Shown piece by piece: positions 48,608-62,652 of a stretch of 64,000 nucleotides of DNA. The stretch comes from SAR324 cluster bacterium. GTDB lineage: Bacteria > SAR324 > XYD2-FULL-50-16. The DNA lies in assembly GCA_028282885.1 (NCBI GenBank), contig JANQGX010000009.1:18177-82176 (forward strand), in the 5' to 3' direction. The notes under the pieces are model-generated. The model was not told the DNA's origin. It ran no database searches and worked only from the letters and a program-made list of their open reading frames with translations. A program made the position numbers and the translations under genes. How positions within the stretch are numbered: position 1 is the first letter of the stretch; each line of letters starts with the position of its first letter.

Positions 48608-49198
48608 ATGCCGTTGAAAGACAATTATTGTTACAGAATTCGAAACAGTCTTTACCTTAACCTGACCAACCGCTGTTCCAACAATTGCGATTTTTGTATT
48701 CAGCATTATACCGATGGTCTGGCGGGAAGTCGTCTGGTTTTAAGCAGAGAGCCCGGTCTGGAAGATGTGATCGGCTCCATCCAATCCCATCTTTCACAGG
48801 TCAGTGAGGTTGTTTTCTGTGGTTTTGGCGAACCCACCTACAGGCTTGCTTTGATTATAGAGACCTGTCAGTGGTTGTGTCGGAATTTCGCCGGCAAAAT
48901 CCGATTGAACACAAATGGTTTAGGGAATCTGATTCAGGGAAAGAGAATAATAGAACCATTATCGGGATTAATCGATCGCATTAATATCAGCTTGAATGCG
49001 ACCGGTCCGGAAGAATATGAGGAAATCTGTCATCCAAGCTTTGGAGAAGATTCTTACCCCTCTATTTTAGAATTTATCAAGCAAGCGAAAGCTGAAATAT
49101 CCCGGGTGACCATCAGCGCTGTTACGGCTTCCGGGGTTGACATGGACCGTATGGAGGAGATTGCAGAGGAACTTGGTGTTGGTTTTGTAGTACGCTGA
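48608..49198 (+). CDS. Small radical SAM protein (similar to TatD-associated radical SAM family)
   Basis: YLNLTNRCSNNCDFCIQHYTDG (CX3CX2C), VVFCGFGEPTYRL, RLNTNGLGNL, INISLNATGPEEYEEICHP. Confidence 0.87.
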   Translation: MPLKDNYCYRIRNSLYLNLTNRCSNNCDFCIQHYTDGLAGSRLVLSREPGLEDVIGSIQSHLSQVSEVVFCGFGEPTYRLALIIETCQWLCRNFAGKIRLNTNGLGNLIQGKRIIEPLSGLIDRINISLNATGPEEYEEICHPSFGEDSYPSILEFIKQAKAEISRVTISAVTASGVDMDRMEEIAEELGVGFVVR

Positions 49199-53077: not shown

Positions 53078-53111
53078 TGAACTGTGGTTTTCCATGGAAA
53101 ACCACAGTTCA
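53078..53111. promoter_or_regulatory. 34-bp perfect loopless palindrome in the 5' leader
   Basis: TGAACTGTGGTTTTCCA|TGGAAAACCACAGTTCA; ends 26 bp before the ATG at 53138. Confidence 0.7.
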
Positions 53112-53137: not shown

Positions 53138-54292
53138 ATGAAAATTACTGCAGTAAAGTCGTTTCCGGTTTTTCCGGGTTGGCGCAAAAATTTGATTTTT
53201 GTGAAGATTGAGACCGATGCCGGTATTAATGGATGGGGCGAAGTGTATACACAGTACGATCGAGATCCGGCCATGAGTTCTCATGTTGAGATTCTTGGTA
53301 AATACTTAATCGGCAGAGATCCTTTTCAGATCAAATATTTTACCACGATGGCCTATGATGATTATGCCCAGCGTCGCGGATCACTTGAGTTTTATTGCGC
53401 GTTATCGGGGTTAGAGGCGGCTCTCTGGGATATTGTCGGTAAAGCTTGTGAGCAACCCGTCTACAATCTTTTGGGTGGGCCGTGTCGGGATAAAATAAGG
53501 GTTTATGCCAACGGCTGGAGCTACAAGAAGCATGAACCCGACGATTTTGCTCGCGCTGCCGAAGAAACCGTAGCGTTAGGTTATACTGCCCTGAAATTTG
53601 ATCCGTTGCCCCGACCTTGGAGAACTTACATTCCGCGTGAGCATGAAAAGCACGCTGAAAAAGTTGTCAAGGCCGTTAGAGACGCAGTTGGCCCTGATGT
53701 CGATCTGTTAATAGAACTGCATCGGCGTCTGTCTGTTAGTCATGCTGTTACTTTGGCTGAAAGGCTGGCTCCGTACGAACCCTTCCTGATTGAGGAACCT
53801 TGTCAGGCAGAGAATATCATTGCCATTGCCGAGGTCCGGTCAAAGACGCATGTTCCGATCATGACCGGGGAAAATATTTTCAGCAAATCGGGATTCAGGA
53901 GGGTTTTTGATCACAGGGCTGCGGATTATATCAACGCTGATGTTGCCAATTGCGGCGGTATCTTGGAATTGGTGGAAATTGCGGCAATGGCGGAACCTTA
54001 TTTTGTTGGTGTGTCGCCCCATAACTATAACTCGACTTCTTTGGCCCTTGCAGCCACCGTTCATGCGTCGGCTGTTATGCAAAATTTCATTATTACCGAA
54101 TACTTTGTCCCGTTTGAAGAGTTTTGCAACGGTTTGTTTCCCGGACAACAAATGAAACCGGTAAATGGTTACATTACGTTGCCCGATAAGCCCGGTTTAG
54201 GCTTAGAACCGGATGAGCAAGCCCTTTTAGCTCATCCCGGTAAGCCCTTTCCGCTTAGAAATCTGCCTTACCCAAAAGATGAAGTGATGTAA
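53138..54292 (+). CDS. Enolase superfamily (mandelate racemase/muconate lactonizing enzyme-like) protein, sugar acid dehydratase-like
   Basis: MKITAVKSFPVFPGWRKNLIFVKIETDAGINGWGEVYT...ALSGLEAALWDIVGKACEQPVYNLLGG...LLIELHRRLSVSHAVTLAERLAPYEPFLIEEP...GVSPHNYNSTS. Confidence 0.9.
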   Translation: MKITAVKSFPVFPGWRKNLIFVKIETDAGINGWGEVYTQYDRDPAMSSHVEILGKYLIGRDPFQIKYFTTMAYDDYAQRRGSLEFYCALSGLEAALWDIVGKACEQPVYNLLGGPCRDKIRVYANGWSYKKHEPDDFARAAEETVALGYTALKFDPLPRPWRTYIPREHEKHAEKVVKAVRDAVGPDVDLLIELHRRLSVSHAVTLAERLAPYEPFLIEEPCQAENIIAIAEVRSKTHVPIMTGENIFSKSGFRRVFDHRAADYINADVANCGGILELVEIAAMAEPYFVGVSPHNYNSTSLALAATVHASAVMQNFIITEYFVPFEEFCNGLFPGQQMKPVNGYITLPDKPGLGLEPDEQALLAHPGKPFPLRNLPYPKDEVM

Positions 54293-54359: not shown

Positions 54360-54824
54360 GTGATTAAGAACAAGGAAATCCTAGGTGGAATAATATTTTT
54401 TTCTCTCAGTCTCTACCTGTTTTACGAAACAAGCAATTTTTCTTCAACTACTGAACGGTACCGTTCGTTGGGTCCAGCGGTCTTCCCCTACGTACTGGCA
54501 ATCTGTCTGGGTTTGCTGAGTATCGTTCTTTTTATTCAAGGAGTCAGGTCTCCCAAAGCGGAACTGTTTTCTTTTTCGATGAAAACAAAAGCGTCGGTTC
54601 AGGTACTTTCATTGATAGCGATGCTGTTTGTTTTCCTGATTTGGGTTGAGAAAATAGGTTTCATCATCTGGAGTTTATCTTTTATGTTTCTTGGGCAAAT
54701 CATTTTAGGCGAACGCCGTTTGGTAACGGCGATGGTGCTGTCAATTGCAGTGGTCGGGATAATTTACCTTATTTTTGGCTTTCTGCTGAATGTTCCGCTT
54801 TCAAGTGGTTTCTTGTCTTACTGA
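54360..54824 (+). CDS. Tripartite tricarboxylate transporter TctB-family protein
   Basis: 4-TM 154-aa protein, YRSLGPAVFPYVLAICLGLLSIVLFIQG; GTG or alternative start; upstream of TctA. Confidence 0.85.
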   Translation: MIKNKEILGGIIFFSLSLYLFYETSNFSSTTERYRSLGPAVFPYVLAICLGLLSIVLFIQGVRSPKAELFSFSMKTKASVQVLSLIAMLFVFLIWVEKIGFIIWSLSFMFLGQIILGERRLVTAMVLSIAVVGIIYLIFGFLLNVPLSSGFLSY

Positions 54825-54848
54825 ATTTACCTTTTGCCTGAGGTGCCT

Positions 54849-56348
54849 ATGGATCTTTTTCTTACCGGTCTCATCTCAATTTTGCATCCAAAGATGCTTT
54901 TTTTTATTTTTGGCGGTACCTTTATCGGAATCACGCTTGGTGCTCTGCCGGGACTTAGCGCAACTATGGGAGTCGCGATTCTGCTTCCTGTTACTTTTTA
55001 TCTGCCTCCCGAACAAGGGATGCTTATTCTCCTGGGAGTCTATGTTGGAGGCATTTACGGCGGTTCGATTGCAGCGATTCTCTTGAATATCCCAGGTTGT
55101 CCTGCATCTTTGATGACCACATTGGACGGCTATCCGATGACTAAAAAAGGGCAGGGTGGACGGGCAATCGGAATTGCCACTACGTCTTCCTTTGTTGGCG
55201 GCGTAATAGGGGTGTTGGCTCTTATTTTCGTGGCTCCGTTTTTGGCCCAAGCAGCCCTTAGTTTTGGTCCTGCCGAATATGCCATGCTGGCCTTTCTGGG
55301 ACTGTCGGCGATCGTTATTGTCGCCGCAAAATCGATTGTAAAAGGATTTATCGGCGTTGTTATCGGACTGTTGATGGCAACTGTGGGAATGGATCCTATT
55401 GTTTCCGTGCCGCGATTCACCTACGGCAGCATCGATTTGATGTCGGGAATAAGCTATATACCGGTGGTAATTGGACTCTTTGGGTTGAGTGAAGTGATGG
55501 TCCAGACACTGCAGATGAAACAGTTGAAAGCCGTACGTCAGACAATCGGTCAGGTATTCCCGAATCTGGCGGATTTTAAAAAAATTTTTAGACATTTTTT
55601 CCATCCCGCCTGGATTGGTACTCTTATCGGTGCATTGCCCGGTGCAGGTGCGTCTATATCTGCCATTATATCGTACAATCGGGCGGTCCAAGCATCAAAA
55701 AAGCCGGATGAGTTCGGCTCCGGAATTCCGGAAGGACTGATCTCCTGTGAAACGGCTAATAATGCTTCAATCGGTGGAGCTTTGGTCCCTCTTCTTACCC
55801 TTGGTATTCCCGGAAGCGCTGTAACAGCTGTTTTATTGGGAGCATTGATGATGCATGATATCACACCGGGACCACTCTTGTTTGTACAGCAACCGGGTCT
55901 GGTTTATACCATTTTCGCGGGTTTGTTGATGGCTAATCTGGCAATGTTGATTTTGGGTCTGGCCGGCGGCAAAGTATTTCCCCGTATAGTCAATTTGAAG
56001 CAATCCGCCCTGCTGCCGTCAATTATCGTCTTGTGCTCGGTTGGTGCCTTTGCCATCAATAACAGTATGTTTGAAGTCGGGATTATGTTTGTCTGCGGAA
56101 TCGGCGGTTTTTTTCTTCGTGAATTGGCCATTTCCCCAGGGCCGATTATTCTGGGTCTTATCTTGGGACCTATTGCAGAATCTAATTTTCGGGGAGCGCT
56201 TGAGTTATCCAGAGGGAGTTTGTTGATATTTGTTCAAAAACCGATATCGTTGATCATTCTGATCGTAACGATATCTTTGCTGCTATCCCCGTTCCTGAGG
56301 GGTTGGCTTCTTAAAACAAAAAGTGGCTTAAGCGCCGGGAAGGCTTAA
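54849..56348 (+). CDS. Tripartite tricarboxylate transporter permease TctA
   Basis: GTFIGITLGALPGLSATMGVAILLPVTFYLPPEQGMLILLGVYVGGIYGGSIAAILLNIPGCPAS; ATG at 54849 preferred over 54834. Confidence 0.95.
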   Translation: MDLFLTGLISILHPKMLFFIFGGTFIGITLGALPGLSATMGVAILLPVTFYLPPEQGMLILLGVYVGGIYGGSIAAILLNIPGCPASLMTTLDGYPMTKKGQGGRAIGIATTSSFVGGVIGVLALIFVAPFLAQAALSFGPAEYAMLAFLGLSAIVIVAAKSIVKGFIGVVIGLLMATVGMDPIVSVPRFTYGSIDLMSGISYIPVVIGLFGLSEVMVQTLQMKQLKAVRQTIGQVFPNLADFKKIFRHFFHPAWIGTLIGALPGAGASISAIISYNRAVQASKKPDEFGSGIPEGLISCETANNASIGGALVPLLTLGIPGSAVTAVLLGALMMHDITPGPLLFVQQPGLVYTIFAGLLMANLAMLILGLAGGKVFPRIVNLKQSALLPSIIVLCSVGAFAINNSMFEVGIMFVCGIGGFFLRELAISPGPIILGLILGPIAESNFRGALELSRGSLLIFVQKPISLIILIVTISLLLSPFLRGWLLKTKSGLSAGKA

Positions 56349-56429: not shown

Positions 56430-57413
56430 ATGTCATCAAGAAAATTTAGAGGACTGTTTACATTCTTAGTCGTGGTAACGATTATGATTACAGCGCCAAT
56501 TGTTTGCGCGCAAAAGAAGTTTCCGAACAAACCGATTCAGTTTATTGTCGGTTGGGGTGCCGGAGGCGGATCGGATTTATCGGTCAGATTTCTGACCAGT
56601 CATACGGAAAAACATCTCGGAAAACCGATTAACGTTCGTAACATGTCCGGCGGTTCCGGTGCCAAGGCTTATATGTACATCTCAAAATCCAAACCGGACG
56701 GTTATACGATCGGCAATACAACAAGCACGATTTCCACTCATAGATTTATGGGAAATATTCCTCTGGGATCGAATGATTTCGAGCCGATTATTGCGTTCAA
56801 CGAGGATCCGGGCGGGGTGTGGGTGGCCACTGATGCTCCCTGGAAAACACTTGCCGAGTTTGTTAACCATGCGAAATCAAGGCCCGGCGAGGCAACGATC
56901 GCTGCTTCCAATCCTGGGTCTATCACTCGTTTTCAGATGATGGCTTTGGAACAGGAAGCCGGAATCGAGTTTAATGTTTTATCGCAAAAAGGTGGTGCCG
57001 GTCCGGGTTTGGTTGCTTTGGCCGGAGGGCATGTCAATGCTGCAATGGGAACTCCTCTTGAAGGTTTCTCTCTTTACAGCGCAGGTAAAATCAGACCGCT
57101 GGGTTTCATGAGCGCAAAACGTGTTGCTAAGTATGAGGATGTTCCAACCATGAAAGAACAGGGATACCCCTTGGTAATCAGCACAAATCGTATGATTATC
57201 GCGCCGAAAGGTACTCCTGCAGACCGCGTTGATACGCTTTATCAAGCTTTTCTAAAGGCTGTGCACACCCCGGCATACCAAAACGCTTTGGAGAGCAAGG
57301 GTTCGACCTGGCTTGATTGGAGTCCCGAGAAATGTAAGGAGTATTTAAAACGACAGGATGCAATTTTTGAAAAGATCATCAAAAAGGCCGGACTCTATCG
57401 GCCCATAAATTAA
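56430..57413 (+). CDS. Tripartite tricarboxylate transporter substrate-binding protein (TctC/Bug)
   Basis: FPNKPIQFIVGWGAGGGSDLSVRFLTSHTEKHLGKPINVRNMSGGSGAKAYMYISKSKPDGYTIG. Confidence 0.95.
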   Translation: MSSRKFRGLFTFLVVVTIMITAPIVCAQKKFPNKPIQFIVGWGAGGGSDLSVRFLTSHTEKHLGKPINVRNMSGGSGAKAYMYISKSKPDGYTIGNTTSTISTHRFMGNIPLGSNDFEPIIAFNEDPGGVWVATDAPWKTLAEFVNHAKSRPGEATIAASNPGSITRFQMMALEQEAGIEFNVLSQKGGAGPGLVALAGGHVNAAMGTPLEGFSLYSAGKIRPLGFMSAKRVAKYEDVPTMKEQGYPLVISTNRMIIAPKGTPADRVDTLYQAFLKAVHTPAYQNALESKGSTWLDWSPEKCKEYLKRQDAIFEKIIKKAGLYRPIN

Positions 57414-57428
57414 TTGATTGGAGAAAGC

Positions 57429-58673
57429 ATGATGAAAAACGGATACAATCCTGCGCTTTTGAGGTTGGAGTTGTTGGCGCAGGGCATAAAGGTTGATCCC
57501 GAATTCAACCAGCAACTTGGCACAGGATTAAAGGAGCCGCTATGGACAAGGACAGGTCCCACCAGCACTGGTATAGATTTGATGCTCGAAAAAGGAATGT
57601 ACTGTAGTCCGGCCATAGAAGGGGAACGTTTCCCTTATCACTACAAGAACTCACCGTTTTTATTGGGTGTGGATGATTCCGGCCAGGGAGTGATTAAAAA
57701 AAATGGAGAGACTATTCAAAAAGTAAAACCATTCCCAAGACCAAGCTTTTACGGTAAAAAAACAAGCAGTGGCAACCTTATGGAAAAAATCGGGGTCGTT
57801 ACCGGTGATTTTTTGGCTATTGCCATCGACAATCGTTGCTGGTTTTGGGGGTACTATCGTGAAGACGAGCTGATTAATTACAAGGAAAGACAGTGTAAAT
57901 TCTGCGGCATCGGGTTGAGTATGAAACGCGATGAGTTGTATCGCAAGAGTAAAGAGGACATACTTGAGGTGGTCGGAGCAGCGGTTGAAGGCGGGGATGC
58001 AAAACACATCGGTATCAACGCGGGTACTATGTCTCCCCCTGGAAGAGGACATGAGGAATACGCCGAGATTGTTTCGGCGATCAAAGATCGCTACGACGTT
58101 TGGATCAGATTATCTATCTGTCCGCCGGAAAAAGAAAAGTACATCGATACTCTCTACGATGCAGGTGCCGATCAGATCGGATATGATATTGAAGTCTATG
58201 ATCCCCGAAAATACGAATATATTTGTCCTGGGAAACTTCATGAAGTGGATCGGGATGTGCCACATCAGCATTTTTTCCGTATGTTGGAATATGCCGCCAA
58301 ACGAGGCGGACCCAACAAAGCATATTCGATCCTGGTGACCGGTCTGGAATCAAGAGAGACGACAGTACAGGGAATAGAAGAGCTTTGTAAGCGTGGAGTT
58401 GTACCTCGCATGGGCATATTCCGCCCGATTCCGGGCACACACCTGGAGAAACACCCAACGCCGAATCCAGGTTATCTTGTGTATATTTACCGCAAATTAC
58501 GAGAACTAACCATGAAGTATGGGGTGGACTCCGGATGCTCCGGCTGTGGCCGGACGTTTGTCGGTACCAAAGAGTATGACGGGGTGAACCCGATCATGCC
58601 GGAAATCACAGATGAGGATTTGGAAATTGCCAAGGTTGATATAAACCAACCGGATGCTTCGGAAATTTCGTGA
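57429..58673 (+). CDS. Radical SAM-like TIM-barrel protein with non-canonical Cys motif
   Basis: NRCWFWGYYREDELINYKERQCKFCGIGLS (CX18CX2C); downstream VEGGDAKHIGINAGT, ADQIGYDIEVYDPRKYEYICPGK, VPRMGIFRPIPGTHLEK typical of BioB/elongator-like rSAM barrels; C-terminal GCSGCG. Confidence 0.8.
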   Translation: MMKNGYNPALLRLELLAQGIKVDPEFNQQLGTGLKEPLWTRTGPTSTGIDLMLEKGMYCSPAIEGERFPYHYKNSPFLLGVDDSGQGVIKKNGETIQKVKPFPRPSFYGKKTSSGNLMEKIGVVTGDFLAIAIDNRCWFWGYYREDELINYKERQCKFCGIGLSMKRDELYRKSKEDILEVVGAAVEGGDAKHIGINAGTMSPPGRGHEEYAEIVSAIKDRYDVWIRLSICPPEKEKYIDTLYDAGADQIGYDIEVYDPRKYEYICPGKLHEVDRDVPHQHFFRMLEYAAKRGGPNKAYSILVTGLESRETTVQGIEELCKRGVVPRMGIFRPIPGTHLEKHPTPNPGYLVYIYRKLRELTMKYGVDSGCSGCGRTFVGTKEYDGVNPIMPEITDEDLEIAKVDINQPDASEIS

Positions 58674-58832: not shown

Positions 58833-58869
58833 GAATTTATTTTTTCGTGATAATCGAAAAAATAAATTC
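58833..58869. terminator. Terminator-like hairpin downstream of the radical SAM gene
   Basis: GAATTTATTTTTTCG / CGAAAAAATAAATTC 15-bp perfect arms, 7-nt loop. Confidence 0.5.
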
Positions 58870-58928: not shown

Positions 58929-58947
58929 CGTTAATATCGGATTAACG
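58929..58947. promoter_or_regulatory. Palindrome overlapping the VOC gene start
   Basis: CGTTAAT-ATCGG-ATTAACG, 7-bp perfect arms, last base is the first base of the GTG start. Confidence 0.35.
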
Positions 58948-59330
58948 TGAACACATTCAAATTGAATCACCTGCACATTGTTTGTAGTGATTTGCAAAAC
59001 ATGGTGCGTTTTTGGACCGAAGGCGTAGGAGCGGATTTGATATGTTTCCGTACTTTCGGAAATGCCGACGGAGCGGTTCTTAGTTTGGACGGTTTGCGGA
59101 TCAGTCTACGCCTGCCGAAAGAAAATGAACAGGTGTGGGAAAGACGACAAAATTCTTTCGGTTATGATCATTTGGGCCTGGAAGTCAACGACCTTGATGA
59201 TGCATGCAACCACTTGGCTGATTTTGCATGTAAAATCGATTCCGGTCCTTTTAAACGAGAGGGCCGAAAAACCGTGTTTTTAAAAGGTCCGGACAACGTT
59301 GTTCTGGAATTAATGCAAATTGATTTTTGA
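58947..59330 (+). CDS. VOC (glyoxalase/bleomycin resistance) superfamily protein
   Basis: FKLNHLHIVCSDLQNMVRFWTEGVGADLI...YDHLGLEVNDLDDACNHLADFACKIDSGPFKREGRKTVFLKGPDNVVLELMQ; GTG start. Confidence 0.92.
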   Translation: MNTFKLNHLHIVCSDLQNMVRFWTEGVGADLICFRTFGNADGAVLSLDGLRISLRLPKENEQVWERRQNSFGYDHLGLEVNDLDDACNHLADFACKIDSGPFKREGRKTVFLKGPDNVVLELMQIDF

Positions 59331-59612: not shown

Positions 59613-60374
59613 ATGAACTTCCAGAAGATCCAAGCTAAAAAAAAGAGCCAGTTGGCAGCCGAAATGCTTATGGATGTTATAAAAAAGAACAAGTTTAAAT
59701 CGGGTGATAAGCTGCCTCCAGAGAGAATAATGGCCAGCGAGATGGGTATGAGTCGTAATACACTGAGGGAGGCTATAGCTGCGCTTCAGATTCTGGGAAT
59801 CATTGAAGTCCGTCATAGTCAGGGTAACTTTGTTGTAAATCTGAATGAGACGATAAGTCTAAGTTCCACGCTGGAGGCAATTTTCTCCTCAAATGACGAT
59901 CCCTTTCTGGTTATTGACGCCCGAATCGCATTTGAACCGGGCGCAGCCGCTTTAGCATGCCAGGTGGCTACCGACAAGGATCTTGAAGAAATTGAGTTGA
60001 ACATGAAGCAGTTGATTAACGGCATTGAAGAAAACAACCTGGTTAGATACTCACAGGCCGATCATGATTTTCATATGAAAATTGCCATATGTACGGATAA
60101 CCCGATAATTATTCAAACCATGCAACATATTATCAAAGTGTTGAAGCAACCCCTGTGGCGTTCCATGAAACAGAGCTTAGCAATGCGCAGCGAAATAAGA
60201 GACGCTCGTGTTGAAGAGCATCAAGCTATCTACAGAGGTCTGGTCGATCGAGATGCTTCCCGGGTTTCAAACAGTCTGCTCACACATCTCAAGCACTCCA
60301 AAAAACGACTGACGTTAGAAATAGAACATGCGGAAACCGCTGCCGATTCAGCCAACGGACGAAATGGATCATAA
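59613..60374 (+). CDS. GntR-family transcriptional regulator, FadR/FCD subfamily
   Basis: GDKLPPERIMASEMGMSRNTLREAIAALQILGIIEVRHSQGNFVV wHTH plus FCD residues DHDFHMKIAICTDNP. Confidence 0.92.
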   Translation: MNFQKIQAKKKSQLAAEMLMDVIKKNKFKSGDKLPPERIMASEMGMSRNTLREAIAALQILGIIEVRHSQGNFVVNLNETISLSSTLEAIFSSNDDPFLVIDARIAFEPGAAALACQVATDKDLEEIELNMKQLINGIEENNLVRYSQADHDFHMKIAICTDNPIIIQTMQHIIKVLKQPLWRSMKQSLAMRSEIRDARVEEHQAIYRGLVDRDASRVSNSLLTHLKHSKKRLTLEIEHAETAADSANGRNGS

Positions 60375-61735
60375 TGAATCCGAATGAAACTGAAGACAGA
60401 TATCTAAGTGAAAAACTGGTCAGCAACCTGGGTCATATTCGCCGGGAATCCCTGCCGGAAGAGGTCATTGAAAAGACAAAGGCCTGTTGGCTGGATTTTT
60501 TGGCCGCCTGCTTCAGCGCTGCCGACTCAAAAGCTGAGAGAACCGCATTTTGGGTGGCCCGGAAAATGGGATTCGGAACCGCACCGTTTATTGGTCGGAG
60601 TTACACGGGCAATGGCCTGGCCTCCGCATTTTATAACGGAATTCTTGCCCATATCCAAGAATTAGACGATTCCCATCGGTACGTATCCGGATTACATCTT
60701 GGTGCAGTTGTATTTCCTGCGGTTTTAGCGTTAGCCAAAGAAGTCAAGTTCACTGGTGAAGAATTCATTCGGGCCGTTGCCTGCGGTTACCAGGGAGCTG
60801 CTCTTGTCTGTCGCTGCTTGGATCAGGGGCATCGGCGTCGGGGGTTTCACAGTACCGGAACGATCGGGCCTTTTGGTAGTTGCATCGGCGCTGGAACTGT
60901 TCTGGGTTTGAATGGCAAGCTATTGGTCGAAGCTATCGGCATCGTCGGATCTGCCGGGGCGGGCTTGTTCGCTTTTCTTGAGGAGGGCGCGACGGTCAAA
61001 CACTTTCATACCGGTCGGGCCGCTTTGGATGGACTGTTGGCCGCATTGCTGGCTAAAGGCGGAATGACCGGACCGAAAGCGGTTTTTGAAGCCAAAGAAG
61101 GTTTCTTCAAGGCTTATGCCGATGAGTTTGACGACGGGCCTTTAAAAAACCCTCCCTCAGATTACGAAATTCTGAATGTATACCATAAAATTCATTCCGC
61201 CTGTGGGCATTCTTTCCCTGCTATAGATGCGGCCTTGGATCTAAAGGAGGAAATTAAAAATCCGGATACGATTGAAAGCGTAGAAATAAAAACCTACCGC
61301 GCCGCGTCTGTTTTAACGAACTCACAGCCTCAATCCGTTCAAGAAGCACGTTTTTCAATACCTTTTCTGGTGGGGCTTGCCCTGGTCAAAGGTCAGGTCG
61401 GGAAAAAAGACATTACCGGTGAAAGACTAAAGGATCGAAGAGTAATGGAAATTGCCGCCCGGGTAAAAGTTATGGAAGATTTTGAGTTGCAGGAAAGCTT
61501 TCCCCGGATGCGAGCCGGTATCTTGCAGGTGACATTGAAAGACGGAAAGGAAATCATCAAACGAGTAGATTCCCCTCGCGGAATGCCGGAAAATCCGATT
61601 TCTTTGAGTGAAATTGTGGAAAAATTCAACTCTGAAGCTGCTCATATGGACCCGAAAGTTCGTCGTCTGATTATTGAAAAATCGATGAAAATGGAAAAGC
61701 TTGTATCAATAACCGAACTAACAGGGCTTCTATAA
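60374..61735 (+). CDS. MmgE/PrpD family protein
   Basis: ACWLDFLAACFSAADSKAERTAFWVARKMG...FYNGILAHIQELDDSHRYVSGLHLGAVVFPAVLALA...YQGAALVCRCL...RRGFHSTGTIGPFGSCIGAG. Confidence 0.93.
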   Translation: MNPNETEDRYLSEKLVSNLGHIRRESLPEEVIEKTKACWLDFLAACFSAADSKAERTAFWVARKMGFGTAPFIGRSYTGNGLASAFYNGILAHIQELDDSHRYVSGLHLGAVVFPAVLALAKEVKFTGEEFIRAVACGYQGAALVCRCLDQGHRRRGFHSTGTIGPFGSCIGAGTVLGLNGKLLVEAIGIVGSAGAGLFAFLEEGATVKHFHTGRAALDGLLAALLAKGGMTGPKAVFEAKEGFFKAYADEFDDGPLKNPPSDYEILNVYHKIHSACGHSFPAIDAALDLKEEIKNPDTIESVEIKTYRAASVLTNSQPQSVQEARFSIPFLVGLALVKGQVGKKDITGERLKDRRVMEIAARVKVMEDFELQESFPRMRAGILQVTLKDGKEIIKRVDSPRGMPENPISLSEIVEKFNSEAAHMDPKVRRLIIEKSMKMEKLVSITELTGLL

Positions 61736-61752: not shown

Positions 61753-62652
61753 ATGGATTTAATTATGGATATCTCTTTTATAGGTTTTGGCGGGGCAGCA
61801 TACGGCTTGACCAAGGGACTCAAACAAGAAGGATTTGGGAATGTTTACTTTTTTGACAAATCGTATAAAAGTAAAAAGTTTGGAGAAATCGTCCGCAAAA
61901 GAGCGAGCGAGACCGGGGCGCTTTATGAAGAAAATATCGAAGATCTGGTTAATTCCTCTGACATGGTAATATCCTGTGTCACCGGTTCAATGGCGGTGAC
62001 CGTTGCACGCGAAGCAGCGCCTTTTCTAAAATCCGGTCAGCTTTATGTGGATGTGAATACAACGTCTCCGGCTGTAAAGGAGTTAGCAGCCGCGATTGTT
62101 GAAAAATCGGGAGCGGAGTACGCAGATGCGGCCATGATGGGCGGTATTCCGACCTGGCTACACCGCGTACCGATTTTTTCCTCGGGAAAGGGGGCAGAGC
62201 GATTCAAAACAACGATGGAACCATTTGGAATGCGGATAAACGTTCTCAGCAAAAAGCCCGGACAGGCGACCGCTATCAAAATGTTTCGCAGCATTTTCAT
62301 GAAAGGGATACTGGCTCTTTTTTTAGAAGTAATGGAAGCCGCCGATCACTACCAGGCAACGGATCTTGTTTTGGGATCAATAGCCGAGACAATGGACAAA
62401 ACATCGTTTTTGGAAACCGCCCGTCTGATCGTAACCAAGGGCGTCGTTAACGCAGATCGAATGGCTCATGAAATGGCAGGGGTGATTGAAACGATTGAAG
62501 CGGCAGATGCTTTATCAATCATGTCAATGGCTACTCGTGATCGACTTCAGTGGTGTCGACAATTGAATCTGCAGGAATTTTTCGGAGGTGAAATTCCCAA
62601 GTCCCTGGAGGAAGTGTTGAAAGCATTGAAAGAAAAGATATCGCAATCTTAA
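61753..62652 (+). CDS. NAD(P)-dependent 6-phosphogluconate dehydrogenase-like protein (DUF1932-type C-terminus)
   Basis: DISFIGFGGAAYGLTKGLKQEGFGNVYFFDKS...QLYVDVNTTSPAVKELAAAIVEKSGAEYADAAMMGGIP...KKPGQATAIKMFRSIFMKGILALFLEVMEAAD. Confidence 0.88.
   Translation: MDLIMDISFIGFGGAAYGLTKGLKQEGFGNVYFFDKSYKSKKFGEIVRKRASETGALYEENIEDLVNSSDMVISCVTGSMAVTVAREAAPFLKSGQLYVDVNTTSPAVKELAAAIVEKSGAEYADAAMMGGIPTWLHRVPIFSSGKGAERFKTTMEPFGMRINVLSKKPGQATAIKMFRSIFMKGILALFLEVMEAADHYQATDLVLGSIAETMDKTSFLETARLIVTKGVVNADRMAHEMAGVIETIEAADALSIMSMATRDRLQWCRQLNLQEFFGGEIPKSLEEVLKALKEKISQS

Follow-up and report, generated by a model that had tools for sequence, protein, structure and literature searches.

A variant radical SAM protein with a conserved, displaced first motif cysteine and a conserved gene set in a SAR324 cluster bacterium

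The window, a 64,000-nucleotide stretch of contig JANQGX010000009.1 (assembly GCA_028282885.1) from a SAR324 cluster bacterium, carries on its + strand a gene for a variant radical SAM protein of 414 amino acids (57429..58673; Pfam Radical_SAM, 5.8e-11), which we call the rSAM protein. The reading frame starts with an ATG at 57429, just 3′ of a GGAG, and its stop codon ends at 58673. All the neighbouring genes considered here lie on the + strand and were assigned by Pfam matches. Upstream are a homologue of enolase-superfamily (MR/MLE) acid-sugar dehydratases or racemases (53138..54292), TctB (54360..54824), TctA (54834..56348) and the TctC binding protein (56430..57413), with 15 nt between the tctC stop and the rSAM start. 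Downstream are a VOC/glyoxalase-fold protein (58947..59330), a GntR/FCD regulator (59613..60374), an MmgE/PrpD-family enzyme (60374..61735) and a beta-hydroxyacid-dehydrogenase-like NAD-binding protein with DUF1932 (61753..62652). The MR/MLE gene probably starts at the ATG at 53138, not at the GTG at 53084, and its product is similar to gluconate/galactonate dehydratases while scoring under all NCBIfam cut-offs. The nearest solved structures to the MmgE/PrpD enzyme are B. subtilis IRG1 and IDS-epimerase.

Between and around these genes we noted several further features. A perfect 32-nt palindrome, GAACTGTGGTTTTCCATGGAAAACCACAGTTC, occupies 53079-53110, a short distance 5′ of the probable MR/MLE start codon at 53138, and may serve the GntR/FCD regulator as an operator. 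Between the rSAM and VOC genes lies an AT-rich inverted repeat with perfect 15-nt arms and a 7-nt loop (58833-58869), which may be either terminator-like or regulatory. A second, short Radical_SAM-domain reading frame (196 aa; 48608-49198) lies upstream of a UvrD-type helicase gene. Searches for RNA families and tRNAs returned none in the 64,000-nt window.

The rSAM protein contains nine cysteines, at positions 59, 137, 156, 159, 231, 266, 320, 370 and 373. Its cluster motif reads NRC137-WFWGYYREDELINYKERQ-C156-KF-C159, that is CX18CX2C, with C137 encoded at 57837..57839 and the C156-K-F-C159 stretch at 57894..57905 (both +), and the Pfam Radical_SAM domain begins at residue 154, close to the second of these cysteines. 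A CX3CX2C motif is absent from the protein, which thus falls outside the canonical radical SAM class: both the sequence and a profile alignment to HydE-type proteins place a lysine, K152 (57882..57884, +), where the first cysteine of that motif would stand. An earlier sequence-only reading had reported this replacement of CX3CX2C by CX18CX2C, together with a second CX2C near the C-terminus, and both are borne out, the latter as C370-X2-C373 in the sequence SGC370SGC373G (58536..58547, +).

We assigned the protein to a family using curated profile models. It matched NCBIfam NF045502 (variant_rSAM) at 212.1 bits over residues 7-363 of 414, well over the cut-off of 125, and is a member of this family, with conserved cysteines and a conserved gene set. 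As observed here, the family signature consists of three retained cysteines in the arrangement CXnCX2C with n greater than 3, and n is 18 in the window protein. Matches to other models missed their cut-offs: TIGR04043 (MSMEG_0568) reached 135.2 bits over residues 73-374 (equivalog cut-off 303.7), and NF053743 (LipS2) reached 35.2 bits (8.9e-9) over part of the barrel (cut-off 270). HydE membership was ruled out at 37.6 bits against the TIGR03956 cut-off of 254.6. Membership of Nit1C, the nitrilase cluster in which MSMEG_0568 members occur (PMC1199592), was also ruled out, as the neighbours are MR/MLE, TctABC, GntR and MmgE/PrpD genes and not nitrilase, GNAT or AIR-synthase-like genes. The best matches among solved structures were HydE, PylB, ThiH and biotin synthase, all with weak scores, and no close solved structure of the protein or of a family member was found in the PDB set searched. 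The variant_rSAM family was present in 44 of 390 sampled genomes, so the rarity implied earlier for motifs other than CX3CX2C does not hold; such a motif characterises a whole catalogued family, in which the spacing of 18 alone stands out. The list of departures given with that claim (ThiC, HmdB, PhnJ and Elp3) was likewise incomplete, since QueE (CX14CX2C) and the NF045502 family also depart from CX3CX2C.

We then assessed the conservation of the motif among homologues collected from genome collections. An alignment of 32 sequences, all matching the NF045502 model and most only 25-29% identical to the query, retained just 13 invariant columns, among them C137, C156 and C159. In a wider survey of 70 homologues plus the query, 68 rows had all three cysteines with more than three residues between the first and second, and C137 was present in every one (68/68). 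The C1-C2 spacing in these rows was 8 in 54, 10 in nine, 11 in two and 18 in three; one remaining row, with a spacing of 3, is a HydE-type outgroup, and two others lack all three cysteines. None of the 68 motif-bearing family members carried CX3CX2C. The conservation of C137 across a family free of CX3CX2C argues that the motif is no degenerate form of the canonical one, and that C137 is the true first ligand position; C59, considered as an alternative first ligand, was ruled out because it is replaced by valine in both close relatives. Of the two options offered by the sequence-only reading, a non-standard cluster-binding loop is thus upheld by an upstream cysteine that is conserved and by homologues that lack the normal motif, and a degenerate or SAM-independent barrel is unsupported for the window protein.

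The spacing of 18 was limited to the window protein and two relatives 73-82% identical, from an uncultured Desulfovibrionaceae (L002, 82%) and a Desulfobacteraceae (L003, 74%), although the search for close relatives used exact peptide patterns and may have passed over members of this clade less than about 70% identical. Relative to the CX8 loop of the family, the CX18 form corresponds to an insertion of 10 residues, approximately GYYREDELIN (57849..57878, +), with K152 in or beside it. In a tree of 67 sequences the three proteins formed one fully supported branch beside a larger group, with a stem of 1.18 changes per column. Nonsynonymous divergence (pN) among them was 0.13-0.19 with synonymous change saturated, and the segment from the first to the third cysteine was at least as constrained. 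A profile alignment to HydE-type proteins held 98% probability along the barrel with the CX2C cysteines paired, and landmarks of the SAM-binding strands were conserved, namely G199 (second strand), E255 (fourth) and G305 and E307 (fifth, G-x-E). These conserved landmarks, together with purifying selection, argue against a decaying gene. The genus and family of the window genome carried distant homologues only (27-28% identical), which makes horizontal transfer of the rSAM gene likely. Matches in two phage records were not accepted as pointing to a viral origin, as one contig carries sugar-kinase-like and TetR-like genes (by eye) and the other match is HydE-like.

The gene neighbourhood was also shared among the three CX18 genomes, which belong to different lineages: all have MR/MLE, MmgE/PrpD and GntR/FCD genes and a TctABC carboxylate transporter. 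Identities to the window proteins in the Desulfovibrionaceae region were 82% for MR/MLE, 46% for GntR, 46% for MmgE, 64% for TctA, 58% for TctC and 38% for the dehydrogenase. In the Desulfobacteraceae region (L003/L061) they were 67.5% for MR/MLE, 45% for GntR and 40-44% for MmgE, and TctA and TctC homologues were present along with an IlvD/EDD dehydratase and an L-2-hydroxyglutarate-oxidase-like protein. The VOC/glyoxalase-fold gene was found in neither of these two gene sets. Among 398 genomes sampled from the L003 phylum, the only one with an MR/MLE match above 60% identity was the genome of L003, also the sole one with a close rSAM relative. The Desulfobacteraceae set further includes a 446-residue protein (L061:5263-6600) without a Pfam or NCBIfam match, and in the Desulfovibrionaceae genome the sequence ATGGTTCAA-nnn-TTGAACCAT lies about 20 nt before the rSAM start.

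Neighbours of other family members differed. In one neighbouring clade (L029-L054), a gene for a DASS-type (Na_sulph_symp/CitMHS) anion transporter adjoins the rSAM gene in 16 of 17 members and lies directly 3′ of it wherever the spacing was read. In an example from this clade (L100:5626-8278), the upstream genes encode a PALP enzyme, a sulfite-reductase-like protein and a ThiF protein, which suggests a link to sulfur assimilation. Beside a further family member (L063, genome G774), homoserine acetyltransferase-like and cysteine synthase-like genes were recognised by eye.

Structure prediction added little on geometry. An AlphaFold model built from an alignment of the window protein and its two close relatives had a mean pLDDT of 50, and 23-40 in the cluster loop, too weak for placing the cysteines; biotin and lipoyl synthases topped the Foldseek list for this model, which is likewise too weak to rely on. 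A deeper alignment for folding was sought in viral contigs and none was found. All three close relatives retain C370 and C373 near the C-terminus, and the model is too weak to show how these two residues are arranged. Tails with CX2C or CX2CX2C occurred in 25 of 67 family sequences. By analogy with LipS2, whose auxiliary cluster is bound by a C-terminal CX2C and one further cysteine (PMC9585515), C370 and C373 may form an auxiliary metal or cluster site. C266 (in ICPGK; 58224..58226, +), which is cysteine in most of the family and alanine in most MSMEG_0568-type members, was dropped as a generally obligatory partner of the C-terminal pair, as the two do not co-vary.

Taken together, these results are best explained, with reasonable confidence, by a true radical SAM enzyme belonging to the variant_rSAM family that has an extended-loop cluster and acts in the anaerobic catabolism of an acid imported by TctABC. 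Cluster binding and SAM chemistry are what we infer for the window protein from its sequence: C137, C156 and C159 would hold a [4Fe-4S] cluster through the extended loop between the first two, in the manner of the CX14CX2C motif of QueE, and the fourth iron would bind SAM to generate a 5′-deoxyadenosyl radical. The conserved gene set supports involvement in the breakdown of an imported hydroxy- or sugar-acid, where the protein would act beside the enolase-superfamily and MmgE/PrpD enzymes, though gene neighbours alone specify no particular reaction. Our guess at reaction and substrate is that hydrogen abstraction most likely starts a rearrangement (epimerisation, dehydration or decarboxylation) of such a hydroxy- or sugar-acid.

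The cysteines could instead be read as remnants, in a SAM-independent barrel whose canonical CX3CX2C lost its first cysteine, now K152, and to which C137 is unrelated. The impression of a lost cysteine arises because the equivalent stretch in HydE-type proteins reads NYC-KND-CYYC against NYK-ERQ-CKFC here, and two full-length homologues in a neighbouring clade have lost all three cluster cysteines (L019 of genome G056, L098:5797-6930; L020 of genome G079, L099:5715-6929). Such homologues indicate that the barrel can persist without a cluster. Like its cysteine-bearing relatives, L020 has a DASS-type transporter gene after it, whereas L019 lies between a Mur-ligase gene, which it overlaps, and a further radical SAM gene. 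Against this, C137 is invariant family-wide, including members without the insertion, no motif-bearing member has a cysteine four residues before C156, and K152 sits in or beside the inserted stretch in a region under purifying selection. The reading is therefore largely refuted, and we consider it very unlikely. That the three cysteines bind another metal such as zinc at a structural site, in a protein that is not redox-active, appears extremely improbable: the low-confidence model does not display the motif geometry, but the Pfam Radical_SAM and NF045502 matches, the alignment of the CX2C pair with HydE-type radical SAM enzymes and the conserved Gly and Glu of the SAM strands all speak against it.

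An unlikely but better-founded reading is that of a sulfur-inserting or maturation enzyme outside catabolism, with a LipS2-like auxiliary cluster at C370 and C373 joined by C266 or C320. It draws on the composition of the LipS2 auxiliary cluster (PMC9585515), on weak matches to the LipS2 model by the query (8.9e-9) and 19 of the 32 aligned sequences, and on the frequency of CX2C and CX2CX2C tails in a family of which some members adjoin sulfur genes. However, the LipS2 model aligns with no more than a part of the barrel and scores far below its cut-off, and most MSMEG_0568-type members with a Cys-rich tail lack C266. The three CX18 relatives, moreover, adjoin carboxylate transporter and dehydratase-like genes, with no recognised sulfur or lipoyl genes beside the rSAM gene. 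A more specific form of the catabolic reading is possible, if doubtful: the CX18CX2C clade may be a radical SAM enzyme of a new type, catalysing a distinct reaction on the imported sugar- or hydroxy-acid in partnership with an enolase-superfamily dehydratase that is also new, both in an anaerobic catabolic pathway. The inserted loop would then shape the active site, and C370 and C373 (with C266 or C320) would carry an auxiliary cluster.

These results indicate that a displaced first cysteine is normal for a catalogued family that is large yet little studied, and that what is unusual here is the length of the loop, the CX18 clade having the longest C1-C2 spacing in our survey. Searching by motif for CX3CX2C alone overlooks true radical SAM enzymes. 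Because the gene set shared by the clade limits which substrates are likely, the chemistry of the family becomes testable.

In the open-access literature searched, we found no paper describing the motif of the variant_rSAM family or testing its chemistry, and none mentioning MSMEG_0568 together with radical SAM; CX18CX2C appeared only in a paper on GATA transcription factors, and radical SAM together with CX8CX2C only in a review of NMR work on iron-sulfur biogenesis. Compared with other members of NF045502, the window protein shares the full-length match, the three invariant cysteines in CXnCX2C and the barrel landmarks, and differs in having n of 18, against 8-11 in the other surveyed members, and in its separate long branch. 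Members of or related to TIGR04043 (Nit1C) are homologous over residues 73-374 and have CX8CX2C and a Cys-rich tail, GCxxCxxC, whereas the window protein has only two cysteines in its tail, a cysteine at 266 (mostly alanine there) and another gene context. HydE, PylB, ThiH and biotin synthase align along the barrel and the CX2C half of the motif; the HydE-type proteins compared here have CX3CX2C, and the window protein scores far below the curated cut-offs. HmdB/HcgA has CX5CX2C (PMC10100467). LipS2 has a weakly similar barrel and also a C-terminal CX2C, but its cluster motif is the canonical CX3CX2C (PMC9585515), which the window protein lacks. The CX14CX2C of QueE has been described as a canonical motif in which a single loop is extended, and it still forms a canonical cluster site (PMC4389238); QueE belongs to a different radical SAM family and is likened here without sequence comparison, such that the long insertion between the first and second cysteines in both proteins is a functional analogy only.
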